Of a stretch of DNA of 51,060 nucleotides, positions 45,534-50,012 are shown piece by piece (position 1 is the stretch's first letter; every line of letters begins with the position of its first letter). The notes under the pieces are model-generated. The model made no database searches and had not been told where the DNA came from. It saw nothing but the letters and a program-made list of their open reading frames with translations. Position numbers and translations under genes: made by a program. This DNA comes from Bacteroidaceae bacterium. GTDB lineage: Bacteria > Bacteroidota > Bacteroidia > Bacteroidales > Bacteroidaceae. The stretch spans positions 1 through 51,060 of the forward strand of contig JAKSJA010000012.1 of the NCBI GenBank assembly GCA_024398495.1, given 5' to 3'.

Positions 45534-45564
45534 TTTGGTGAAAACAAAAATGTTTGTACCTTTG
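45534..45564 (+). promoter_or_regulatory. Promoter of fimbrillin cassette 1
   Basis: TTTG (45534-45537), exactly 19 bp, TACCTTTG (45557-45564). The next ATG in a credible gene is at 45891, so the leader is about 320 nt. Confidence 0.75.
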
Positions 45565-45570
45565 CACCGT

Positions 45571-45890
45571 CATTCATGCAATGACACTGCGGGGTTATAT
45601 GCCCCGAAACTTATTGGATTGTCATAAAGCGTTAGCTTTTATTTGTGTTATTCTCGAATTACCACATGTAGAATTTCAGCACGAATGAATAAGGAGCACG
45701 CCTGTGTTTGGACTGTGAACATTGGTCTTTTTCATTTTATTTGAATTTACCGTGTCGTAAAGCGAAATAGCTGGAGAATACAGCATCTGTCTGTTATGTT
45801 CTCCCATTTCTTTTAATTGTTGACGCTGACAAGATAAGGATCACATCCTTGCCACTAGGATTAACAATATAAAAGAAAGGTTATTAGATT
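45571..45890 (+). ncRNA. Structured 5' leader of cassette 1 (conserved leader motif, copy 1)
   Basis: A leader of about 320 nt without a credible ORF. The 69-nt block 45626-45694 matches 47901-47969 at 66 of 69 positions. Within it TTTGTG (45642-45647) can pair with CACGAA (45680-45685) and ATTCT (45650-45654) with AGAAT (45670-45674). Other hairpins: AAAGC-GTTA-GCTTT at the block start, GTCATT/AATGAC and CGGGG/CCCCG before it, GGAGAA/TTCTCC and AAGGAT/ATCCTT after it. I recognise no known riboswitch. It may regulate the downstream surface-protein genes or be processed as an RNA. Confidence 0.6.
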
Positions 45891-46049
45891 ATGAAAGTAA
45901 AAAAATTATGTAAACTTGTTTACGAAGCACCAGACATTGATGTTGCCGACATCAAGTTGGAAAGTTATCTGTGTCAGGCGAGTGTTCCCGTTATTCCGAC
46001 AGAAGAACCGGGACATGAGGGCTTTGGCGATGAGGAAGAAGAATGGTAA
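45891..46049 (+). CDS. 52-aa acidic small protein of the fimbrillin cassettes (copy 1)
   Basis: ATG 45891, stop TAA 46047-46049. The middle reads LVYEAPDIDVADIKLESYLCQ; the C-terminus is strongly acidic and ends DEEEEW. The second cassette encodes a 55-aa relative at 48186; shared positions are LY..P.....V..L.LES.LCQ.S. There is no signal peptide. Similar short proteins (YxxP...V...LC) preceding fimbrillin-type lipoprotein genes are familiar from Prevotella, but I know of no function. The lipoprotein gene starts 41 nt after the stop. Confidence 0.75.
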   Translation: MKVKKLCKLVYEAPDIDVADIKLESYLCQASVPVIPTEEPGHEGFGDEEEEW

Positions 46050-46090
46050 ACAAAAGGTGTTCAAGATTGTTATTTAAAAGATTTAGAATT

Positions 46091-48185: not shown

Positions 48186-48353
48186 ATGAAGAAAGGTTTT
48201 AGTCAAAGACATCTTTATGTGTCTCCAAGCATGAAGGTGTTTGAGTTGGATTTGGAGAGCTTACTCTGCCAGCAGAGCGCAGGTAACGAAACTTTTAATG
48301 AGGGCTCAACAGGAGATTGGGTTATCACAGACGATGATGATGAAAGTATGTAA
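48186..48353 (+). CDS. 55-aa acidic small protein of the fimbrillin cassettes (copy 2)
   Basis: ATG 48186, stop TAA 48351-48353. Contains HLYVSPSMKVFELDLESLLC followed by QQS, aligned with copy 1 at LES.LCQ.S, and ends with the acidic ITDDDDESM. The single Cys, the Pro and the acidic tail are shared. The lipoprotein gene starts 13 nt after the stop, so the two are surely co-transcribed. No known function; no export signal. Confidence 0.78.
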   Translation: MKKGFSQRHLYVSPSMKVFELDLESLLCQQSAGNETFNEGSTGDWVITDDDDESM

Positions 48354-48366
48354 AAATTGAAAGATT

Positions 48367-49911
48367 ATGAAAAAGTATTTTTATTTCTTATTGTTTGCCC
48401 TGACGGCAATGGTATTTACAGGATGTTCAAGTGACGATGACTTTACTCCGGACACTCCTGAAGGAGAGACCTTTACTGCATCTATAGAGGAAGCATCAAG
48501 GACGATGCTCAATGGCAGAAAGGTAACATGGATAGAAGGTGATGCTGTAAACTTTGCTACGACTGCCACCACTTTGGCTGCACCATATAGCGTTACTCCT
48601 CTGGGAGATGGAAGTATGGGATTGCTTTCACCGACAGGTACGAATACGCCAAAGACTCCGTACGAGGCATATTATCCTGAAAGTATTTGGGCAAAAAACG
48701 AACAGGGAAAATATTCTTCTGCACTGAACTACAGACAGGACTATGAAAGTGAGAACAACATATCAAAGGTAAACCCGATGTACGCTACGAGTGAAACCAC
48801 ATATCTTACTTTCAAGAACATCTGCGGTATGCTCAGGTTGAAACTCAAAGGAACGGCGAAGATATCACGTATCATGGTTTCTGACGGTGACCACTCTCTG
48901 TCGGGAAGTTTCAGTTTGAATAATGATATGGCTGTGATTTCATCAACATCAGAAGAAATGCGCACAGGTGTCTATCTCAACTGTGGGGAAGGTATTCAGT
49001 TGACACCAGAGGGAACGGATTTCTGTATCTCCATCCCTGCTGGAAGAACGTACAACAAACTCGTCATAAAGGTGTATGATACTGAAGATGGTTACTACAC
49101 CATGAGAATATCCAACGCTACTGTTGACAGGAACAACATCTATACGATAGAGAAGACTCCGAAGTTCAAACCTGTACCGGCTCCTGTCATGCCGGGAGCA
49201 TTCTCTGTGTCAAATGATGATGGTAAGACAATACGCAAAGTCTATTTCTCAAGAGGAAACATGTACTGGGACGCTATAAGAGAGCAGTTTGATCTTGAAG
49301 TAAACCAGCAGGACTATTCTCCCGTACCACTTCGTGGATATTGGTCTGTATATGATCCTACTCATGTGTCTCATTTATTCTATACACAGGATCCAGAGAA
49401 GGCGTATGGCCTTACTTACGACACATCGAAAGATACTAAAACTGACACTCTCTTCGCTCATGGAATGGAGATGTATGGAACAAAATGGCAGGTTCTTACG
49501 GAAAACGAATGGAAGTATCTTTTTACGCGTAAAGGTAACGGGAAATATTTGTTTGCAGGAAAGGCTGTGGAAATAGACAACGAATACGTCATCGGTATGT
49601 TCCTGTATCCAGACGATTATGTGGGAAACAAGGATGAAGATACATGGAAAGAGATAGAAGATGCCCATATCGTCATCCTGCCAGTGTCAGGTGGAGCGCG
49701 TTCTCATGCAGGTGATGGCTCAACTATAGCGTCAATAGGACAGCAGGGTACATACATGGCCAATAAGTTGAGATCGAATGGAAGTACTGGTGGATATTAT
49801 TTCAAAACAATAAATAAGGGAAAGGAGTGGACTAAGAATACAATTGCTTTTGGACGTGGGTATGGACTTGCTATCCGCCTCGTGACAGAGGAAAACCCTA
49901 ATGAAAAGTAG
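48367..49911 (+). CDS. Fimbrillin-like surface lipoprotein with C-terminal lectin-like domain (cassette 2)
   Basis: 514 aa. Lipobox VFTGC, Cys about 20, then SSDDD. The N-terminal half (about 30-265) is fimbrillin-like beta-rich sequence (YLTFKNICGMLRLKLKG, DFCISIPAGRTYNKLVIKVY). The C-terminal half starts PGAFSVSNDDGKTIRKVYF followed by SRGN, with WQVLTENEWKYLFTRKG, IGMFLYPDDY, VILPVSGGARS and GLAIRLVTE: the same module as in cassette 1 and in many Prevotella proteins. Apart from these anchor motifs the two lipoproteins are quite different, although their non-coding flanks are nearly identical. Confidence 0.84.
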   Translation: MKKYFYFLLFALTAMVFTGCSSDDDFTPDTPEGETFTASIEEASRTMLNGRKVTWIEGDAVNFATTATTLAAPYSVTPLGDGSMGLLSPTGTNTPKTPYEAYYPESIWAKNEQGKYSSALNYRQDYESENNISKVNPMYATSETTYLTFKNICGMLRLKLKGTAKISRIMVSDGDHSLSGSFSLNNDMAVISSTSEEMRTGVYLNCGEGIQLTPEGTDFCISIPAGRTYNKLVIKVYDTEDGYYTMRISNATVDRNNIYTIEKTPKFKPVPAPVMPGAFSVSNDDGKTIRKVYFSRGNMYWDAIREQFDLEVNQQDYSPVPLRGYWSVYDPTHVSHLFYTQDPEKAYGLTYDTSKDTKTDTLFAHGMEMYGTKWQVLTENEWKYLFTRKGNGKYLFAGKAVEIDNEYVIGMFLYPDDYVGNKDEDTWKEIEDAHIVILPVSGGARSHAGDGSTIASIGQQGTYMANKLRSNGSTGGYYFKTINKGKEWTKNTIAFGRGYGLAIRLVTEENPNEK

Positions 49912-49926
49912 AATATAAACGAATTG

Positions 49927-50012
49927 GTGAATCTCTAATCAATTTTTCACTAAATTTTCACAATTAAAACATTCCAAGACCTATCCTGCTGCGAAGCACG
50001 ATAGGTCTTTTT
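49927..50012 (+). terminator. Conserved trailer and terminator of cassette 2
   Basis: 49927-49975 matches the cassette 1 trailer except for a few substitutions and one missing A. The terminator has outer stem AGACCTATC/GATAGGTCT (49977-49985 with 50000-50008), the same inner TGCT/AGCA and a GCGA loop, then five T. Outer stems differ between cassettes but stay fully paired. Confidence 0.85.

Follow-up and report, generated by a model that had tools for sequence, protein, structure and literature searches.

A covarying leader RNA, often preceded by a minimal reading frame, lies before many exported-protein genes of Bacteroidales and probably before two lipoprotein units of a Bacteroidaceae bacterium

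Near the end of a 51,060-nucleotide stretch of DNA from a Bacteroidaceae bacterium (GenBank assembly GCA_024398495.1, contig JAKSJA010000012.1, here C4), two adjacent units of the same design raise a simple question: why should noncoding flanks be far more alike than the genes they enclose? The window, by which we mean this whole stretch, is the entire contig C4 of a draft genome (1.43 Mb, 37 contigs, 62.7% complete), the one genome of its species covered here. Between positions 45534 and 50012, each unit runs in the order given by an initial annotation: promoter, leader, small acidic protein, lipoprotein, trailer, and terminator. That annotation attributed the conserved flanks either to a function at the RNA level or to exchange of coding modules in a surface-antigen cassette system. 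We consider it probable that both leaders belong, as divergent representatives, to a cis-acting Bacteroidales leader RNA gated by a ribosome on a very short open reading frame (mini-ORF), and that the unit carrying this leader was amplified and recombined.

The difference between flanks and genes held up when measured. The leader block at 45626-45694 matches its counterpart at 47901-47969 in 66 of 69 positions (96% over 69 nt), as first reported, and a search of the genome with one recovered the other at an E value of 1.9e-26; an ungapped leader block of 77 nt is 92% identical. From the end of the -7 box to the small open reading frame (ORF) the leaders span about 326 nt in unit 1 and 338 nt in unit 2, close to the 320 nt originally estimated. 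The conserved trailer, including its terminator, is 86% identical over 101 nt, versus 29 to 33% for the lipoproteins. The description of the encoded proteins as sharing only short motifs was too strict, as an alignment of the lipoproteins covers the greater part of both, with 29% (E = 1.9e-17) to 33% identity.

Evidence for an RNA came from relatives. Short matches to the leader block in two genomes of the genus turned out to be longer, rod-shaped leaders. A third short match outside this genome (19 nt, at locus L006) looks like chance, and the exact pattern GTTATTCTCGAATTACCACA had no match in the genome contig collection. With the leader of one relative as a DNA query, matches appeared in 39 of 100 genus genomes and none in the genome studied here. 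A first alignment of 29 of 30 loci (L079 was left out) gave an RNAalifold structure of 37 pairs, 16 of them changed on both sides. In this structure 97.1% of alignment cells are paired, versus 37 to 49% when it is slid by 1 to 3 columns, and its covariation score of 0.317 was reached by none of 500 shuffled alignments (0.157 +/- 0.008). The RNA begins with the 5' strand of a closing helix (GACAUA...AAAGCGU), continues into a rod of about 150 nt and a side hairpin, and ends with the U-rich 3' strand of the closing helix. The side hairpin (helix 6; CGUAGAC/GUCCACG or covarying forms) itself covaries, with 98.6% of cells paired, and is followed by U-runs, which also pair with the 5' strand of the closing helix. 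Native closing-helix strands pair at -12.75 kcal/mol versus -11.83 kcal/mol for swapped strands, and the lowest of 5000 permutations reached -12.51.

A covariance model built from these 29 leaders, R1, contains no window sequence. R1 nevertheless matched the unit 2 leader at 47.0 bits (E = 6.6e-9 in a 74-kb search, 1.3e-7 across the genome), as well as a leader on contig C11 at 59.7 bits, upstream of a gene for a BspA-type leucine-rich repeat protein. Downstream of unit 2 lie a third promoter and an orphan leader (50112-50319), with no gene seen before the contig ends; R1 scored this leader at 21.6 bits (E = 0.0036 in 74 kb, 0.07 in the genome), and 1 of 200 dinucleotide shuffles folds as well as it does. 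Compared with such shuffles, the fold z scores are -5.21 for unit 2, -3.87 for unit 1, and -3.78 for the orphan, and the minimum-energy fold of unit 1 shows the 5'/3' closing helix. For the leader, the suggestion of an RNA-level function thus gained strong support, as a covarying RNA family precedes unrelated surface genes across the Bacteroidales.

The counts that follow are minimum figures for how widely the family is distributed, since only a few initial candidates in each genome went on to scoring. Within the family Bacteroidaceae, R1 matched 202 of 299 genomes and 22 of 27 genera (E up to 1e-4; genomes at least 80% complete, apart from our own), and across the order it matched 68 of 197 genomes and 54 of 147 genera (E up to 1e-6; at least 85% complete). 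Named carriers include records of Prevotella, Paraprevotella clara, Hoylesella buccalis, Prevotella disiens, and Xylanibacter caecicola. These came from a search with an exact 24-letter pattern (22 specified bases), from which 80 of at least 120 matches entered a named set that shares some species with our first set of leaders. One opposite-strand row of 34 was dropped from the first set and nine of 88 from the named set (eight weak opposite-strand rows and one that was cut off).

The leader appears to be an unlisted and undescribed RNA family of the Bacteroidales. Scanning Rfam 15, Bacteroidales-1 and Bacteroides-1 among its families, with cmscan at E values up to 1 placed no family on the element of the window or of nine relatives, and none that reached its gathering score in eight distant relatives (17 relatives in total); the single subthreshold overlap was L20_leader at locus L252 (23.7 bits versus a gathering score of 58.7, E = 0.91). 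No description of this leader was found in the passages of openly accessible articles searched, PMC7160235 included. Flavo-1 (RF01705) is likewise structured, is widespread in Bacteroidota, and is reported to coincide with some transcribed 5' regions (PMC2864571, PMC9723704); in a table of the 2010 survey it is marked as not cis-regulatory (Weinberg 2010, PMC2864571), and it was absent from the Rfam matches in the window and the 17 relatives, assuming that RF01705 was among the 4227 models. A large de novo set of candidate structured RNAs from human microbiomes (HMP2) includes palindromic Bacteroidetes candidates and two confined to Prevotella, and the descriptions consulted mention no surface-gene leader with a mini-ORF; one of its 3161 candidates may overlap this element (PMC8040213). 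In Bacteroides thetaiotaomicron, a member of the same order, long 5' untranslated regions (UTRs) carry short ORFs reminiscent of attenuation peptides, and the sections of that report we drew on describe neither this RNA nor a frame of one to three codons (PMC7366714).

The genes behind the leader tend to encode exported proteins. An ORF starts within 140 nt in 68 of the 79 leaders of the named set, at a median distance of 66 nt; the remaining 11 had none by our script rule and were left out. Signal peptides, called by a simple script rule, occur in 59 of these 68 ORFs versus 104 of 352 other ORFs at the same loci (Fisher p = 5.6e-19). Pfam assigned 19 of the 68 proteins to BspA-type leucine-rich repeats, four to outer-membrane beta-barrels, two to DUF4595, and two to zinc ribbons, and the remaining families mostly occur once. 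In the order sample the corresponding count is 24 of 35. At loci L066 and L159, a 387-amino-acid (aa) ORF that we take to be transposase-like begins about 190 nt after the leader, and at L005 an CCCTTCAGGGAGGGGTAGGGGGTAGGCTCC stretch with a palindromic core falls inside the signal-peptide region, where a surface-protein gene begins (1754-1840).

Upstream of the element lies a reading frame that is almost nothing but a start and a stop. An ATG occurs 25 to 46 nt before the element in 58 of 62 leaders of the first set, and 55 of these 58 have an in-frame stop within five codons, in every case after zero, one, or two codons (17, 26, and 12 leaders); 2000 shuffles gave a mean of 20.5 and a maximum of 31, and the other two frames gave 11 and 29 of 58 within five codons. 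All 77 testable leaders of the named set (two of the 79 fell out, one being too short and one lacking the ATG) have a stop after zero to two codons (11, 47, and 19), compared with a shuffled mean of 17.6 and maximum of 30, and with 16 and 37 in the other frames within five codons. A slightly different rule gave 78 of 78 (out of 79), the other frames giving 11 and 17 within zero to two codons. With the sets merged, 121 of 129 distinct upstream stretches carry such a frame (26, 69, and 26). In family leaders the mini-ORF usually sits about 35 nt upstream of the element, mostly in the context GCC[TAC]ATG, and its stop precedes the GACA-like start of the closing helix by a median of 13 nt. The second codon is not fixed (17 different codons for 10 amino acids were seen) and each of the three stops is in use, so that translation itself, and not the peptide, seems to be what is conserved.

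The frame also extends beyond the family. Of 38 leaders hand-picked from 31 other families among the matches listed, half (19) carry an ATG within range, and in 17 of those 19 an in-frame stop follows after zero to two codons; the other frames gave 2 and 0, and 1000 shuffles that kept the ATG gave a mean of 5.4 and a maximum of 12. By eye, the mini-ORF is present at five of the 10 best order-wide loci, and in one distant genome it occurs in 10 of 14 leaders, which is all 10 of those with an ATG. Five distant leaders (L300, L301, L302, L317, and L320) share an CGTTCTTTA-like block upstream, possibly a second upstream module; L301 and L302 also have the mini-ORF, and the other three lack it.

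Known minimal frames offer partial parallels. In the bacterial txe leader (axe-txe), a translated two-codon minigene changes downstream expression in cis, and like the frames found here it consists of AUG, a codon, and a stop (PMC8708949). The txe minigene ends 15 nt before its gene, is explained by translational coupling, and in the part of the report considered has no strong leader structure (PMC8708949), whereas the mini-ORF of the present leader lies about 270 nt upstream (by summed spacings), in many genera, with a conserved folded RNA in between. The plant NIP5;1 AUGUAA likewise places an immediate stop after an AUG in a 5' UTR and serves as a regulatory site through ribosome stalling, and it differs in belonging to a plant gene that responds to boron; no homology is claimed (PMC11915504). 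As far as the consulted parts of these accounts go, the txe minigene is the closest known bacterial case, and neither example appears to carry such a conserved folded RNA.

From this arrangement we infer that a ribosome on the mini-ORF controls folding of the leader, and thereby either a terminator or translation. Genes of the Bacteroidales are not known to carry Shine-Dalgarno sequences. Such sequences are reported to be lacking in flavobacteria, a related group (PMC9723704). The leading edge of a ribosome that both starts and ends on the mini-ORF would abut the closing helix, and how fast initiation, termination, or recycling proceeds on that frame would decide whether the helix forms. The closing helix would in turn either free the side hairpin and U-run to act as a terminator or set the translation of the surface gene.

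Several observations weigh against this account. R1 matched the unit 1 leader only partially, at 13.8 bits (E = 0.21 in 74 kb, 4 in the genome), so that its place in the family was assigned by its fold and its near identity to the unit 2 block, and a leader on contig C18 scored 17.8 bits with a genome-wide E value of 0.5. The closing helix is not evident in the unit 2 fold, and in only 83 of 129 leaders do the native strands outdo the average of the swapped pairings. Our shuffle and permutation controls leave sequence relatedness in place. Stops within five codons are themselves frequent in the +2 frame of both sets (29 of 58 and 37 of 77), and 19 of the 38 order-wide leaders have no ATG in range; the mini-ORF is not universal, as only 17 of those 38 have one. 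In the genome studied here, the frame has one codon in unit 1 and C18 (50 and 42 nt upstream) and four in unit 2 and C11, and the leader designated u3 has none in range, a weakly conserved pattern that chance could give. "Surface genes" describes only a tendency, because zinc-ribbon ORFs and ORFs that we presume to be transposase-like or Crp-like also follow the leader. Both termination within the leader and translation of the mini-ORF are predictions from sequence.

An RNA of this kind could also be a ligand-sensing riboswitch or a protein-binding attenuator, with the start-stop frame just loading a ribosome or protecting the 5' end and taking no part in sensing. Conserved blocks that lie beyond the paired columns of the alignment fit such a mechanism, as do the terminator-like hairpin with its U-run and the absence of the mini-ORF from 21 of 38 order-wide leaders. 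What the downstream genes have in common, however, is export and no evident metabolite or pathway, and it is the reading frame that is held in place, not merely the ATG. We regard this explanation as unlikely, though worth keeping in view.

If the leader belongs to an order-wide RNA, the remaining question is how this genome came to hold units with shared flanks and diverged genes (Table 1). The arrangement is not limited to the two units first described. Contig C18 holds a third complete unit, with a small protein of 56 aa and a lipoprotein of 503 aa, and ends in what looks by eye like a further unit beginning with its promoter and leader; contig C19 begins within a lipoprotein that is 72% identical to that of unit 2 and holds the 3' part of a fourth unit. 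The proposed search of the genome and its relatives for the flanks recovered further copies on C18 and C19, a leader family widespread in relatives, and a trailer found in this genome only.

Table 1. Features of the two units and the orphan leader in the window
Feature	Positions	Strand	Details and basis
Unit 1 promoter	45534..45564	+	TTTGG ... TACCTTTG; sequence; boxes presumed to be of the Bacteroidota -33/-7 type
Unit 1 mini-ORF	45576..45584	+	ATG CAA TGA; 50 nt before leader element (relatives about -35)
Unit 1 leader RNA	45619..45832	+	45619-45632 pairs with 45823-45832 as the closing helix of a rod; side hairpin at 45773-45804
Unit 1 small acidic protein	45891..46049	+	52 aa; motif Y-x-A-P ... 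E-S-x-L-C
Unit 1 lipoprotein	46091..47638	+	515 aa; signal peptide; lipobox FAAC (by eye); no Pfam family; alternative upstream start at 46043 gives 531 aa
Unit 1 trailer	47649..47743	+	Hairpin TTAGTGAA/TTCACTAA (47655-47684), then terminator CCTGTC/GACAGG and T run
Unit 2 -7 box	47840..47847	+	TAACTTTG; sequence
Unit 2 mini-ORF	47859..47876	+	ATG, 4 codons, TAG; exceeds family norm of 0-2 codons
Unit 2 leader RNA	47901..48075	+	Covariance-model match and fold
Unit 2 small acidic protein	48186..48353	+	55 aa
Unit 2 lipoprotein	48367..49911	+	514 aa; lipobox FTGC (by eye)
Unit 2 trailer and terminator	49918..50012	+	Hairpin TTGGTGAA/TTCACTAA; terminator CCTATC/GATAGG
-7 box before orphan leader	50112..50119	+	TATCTTTG; sequence
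Orphan leader RNA	50158..50319	+	Covariance-model match and fold

Identity among the units is patchy, and the patches depend on which pair is compared. By BLAST, units 1 and 2 share 77 nt of leader (92%), 101 nt of trailer (86%), and 51 nt at the lipoprotein start (80%). Unit 1 and C18 share 71 nt of the small ORF (96%), 105 nt of trailer (90%), 34 nt of leader (85%), and 76 nt of lipoprotein (72%), and unit 2 and C18 share 104 nt of trailer (86%), 37 nt of leader (84%), and 29 nt before the small ORF (90%). Unit 2 and C19 match throughout, over 1423 nt at 79%, so by these identities the neighbors in the window are less alike than unit 2 is to C19. Islands of identity that differ by unit pair suggest recombination or conversion among paralogues, and differing constraint could be an alternative cause.

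The trailer is present four times in this genome, at both window units and on C18 and C19 (E = 1.1e-27 to 2.1e-15; 2.7e-17 to 2.1e-15 for the three copies other than the query). An A-U pair in the unit 1 hairpin is G-U in unit 2, and the terminator stems differ by a compensatory change. Full flanks occurred in no other of 200 sampled genus genomes, among which the trailer looks private to this one. Weak trailer matches in 23 other genomes of the 200 (E = 0.0018 to 0.045) were considered as signs of a wider element; 24 of 25 places were inspected, lie beside unrelated genes, and were judged to be chance.

Three modules can be told apart here, namely leader, gene pair, and trailer, and the gene pair is widespread. 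A profile of four small proteins matched 48 of 201 family genomes. In one genome, G286 (two contigs), the small acidic protein with the Y-x-A-P...E-x-x-x-C motif was matched 19 times at E values up to 0.01, mostly weakly, and pairs of small protein and lipoprotein may have grown there into a large family of paralogues. Of 29 related small-ORF loci examined, 19 show an ORF next in line by our script rule, and in 17 of those 19 its product is exported or lipoprotein-like. The leader model found one weak match (20.2 bits) among the 29 loci, from which we conclude that leader and gene pair are largely independent; the small protein was rejected as a partner of the leader on the same count. Partial relatives of the unit 2 lipoprotein occur in six of 397 other genus genomes, and at these six there was no leader-model match and flank BLAST matches were of 11 to 29 nt only.

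The lipoproteins themselves resisted classification. Pfam returned nothing above cutoff for those in the window (best DUF5006, E = 0.16) or for those on C18 and C19, and Mfa1-family fimbrillins (NF038041) matched only the N terminus of the unit 2 protein, at 14.3 bits and far under the Mfa1/FimA-type cutoff of 130. A structure prediction for the unit 2 protein from two sequences had a mean pLDDT of 30.4 and was unusable for assigning a fold. A C-type-lectin or formylglycine-type domain in the C-terminal half is a presumption of ours that we do not claim.

Under the leader-RNA reading, the leader would have been recruited in this genome before an independent module of small acidic protein and fimbrillin-like lipoprotein. 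The unit would then have been amplified to at least four copies with a common 3' trailer, and recombination among the copies would have kept patches alike as the lipoproteins diverged.

Four units with common flanks and diverged genes could also form a surface-antigen cassette system, in which the flanks serve mainly as recombination sites for exchanging coding modules. The islands of identity vary between unit pairs, contigs C18, C19, and C4 each have an end inside or close to a unit, and all four strong trailer matches of the genome sit at such units, as a cassette system would have it. There is, however, no single expression site, as each of the three 5'-complete units has its own promoter and leader; in more than 200 sampled genomes a conserved leader stands before unrelated genes, and both trailer and leader keep pairing changes at the RNA level. 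Of the proposed module exchange, the part that gained support is recombination among paralogues, with which the pair-specific islands fit. A cassette model is not required to explain conservation of the leader, which is found before many unrelated genes elsewhere. The antigen-cassette reading is possible and unproven, and we judge it quite unlikely from the sequences compared here. Contigs C4, C11, C18, and C19 start or stop within or near leaders or units, which suggests that the repeated units broke the assembly.

A plain recent tandem duplication with slower-evolving untranslated regions would account for two adjacent units alike in order, and it is improbable. Between units 1 and 2 the coding DNA gives a single short BLAST match, versus 86% identity in the trailer and 92% in the leader block, and unit 2 is far closer to C19, on another contig, than to its neighbor. 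The flanks are not restricted to this locus, as copies lie on two further contigs, and identity between the two window lipoproteins is only about 30%. Least probable is a mobile palindromic repeat, similar to a miniature inverted-repeat transposable element (MITE), landing by chance before genes: copies are numerous within genomes and on average more alike there, and two sampled leaders stand before the presumed transposase-like ORF noted above, but the order of promoter, mini-ORF, element, about 66 nt, and start codon is fixed, the bias to exported products is strong, and the 24-letter pattern has no exact match in a viral contig collection. Mean leader identity was higher within than between the four genomes sampled, with 20 additional leaders used for identities alone and kept outside the mini-ORF counts; the excess in one of them, G218, is slight (0.673 versus 0.663), a point against the leader-RNA account, which the higher within-genome identity otherwise favors.

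Two further features lie elsewhere in the window. An GTTGACTGTTGACCG-type repeat unit occurs in both orientations at 44521-45147, between an operon that we take to be RND-efflux-like and a P-II-like gene. On the forward strand, 5304-5593 matches Rickettsia sRNA47 (RF02800) at 36 bits (E = 8e-6), under the gathering score of 60, perhaps through coding similarity.

A broader proposal, which we put forward tentatively, is that start-and-stop translation, on an AUG-stop or AUG-one-codon-stop frame, is the conserved input of a sensor, with a parked ribosome gating an RNA of about 170 nt and so tuning many surface and secreted genes together to the cell's capacity for initiation, termination, or recycling. 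Bacteroidales are dominant members of the gut and oral flora. If the leader acts as suggested, its presence in two thirds of the sampled family genomes would make it a common switch of the cell surface, with adhesin-like leucine-rich repeat proteins, outer-membrane proteins, and lipoproteins among its targets. The start-stop frame would then represent a rarely seen form of translational sensing, one that is directly testable by point mutations.

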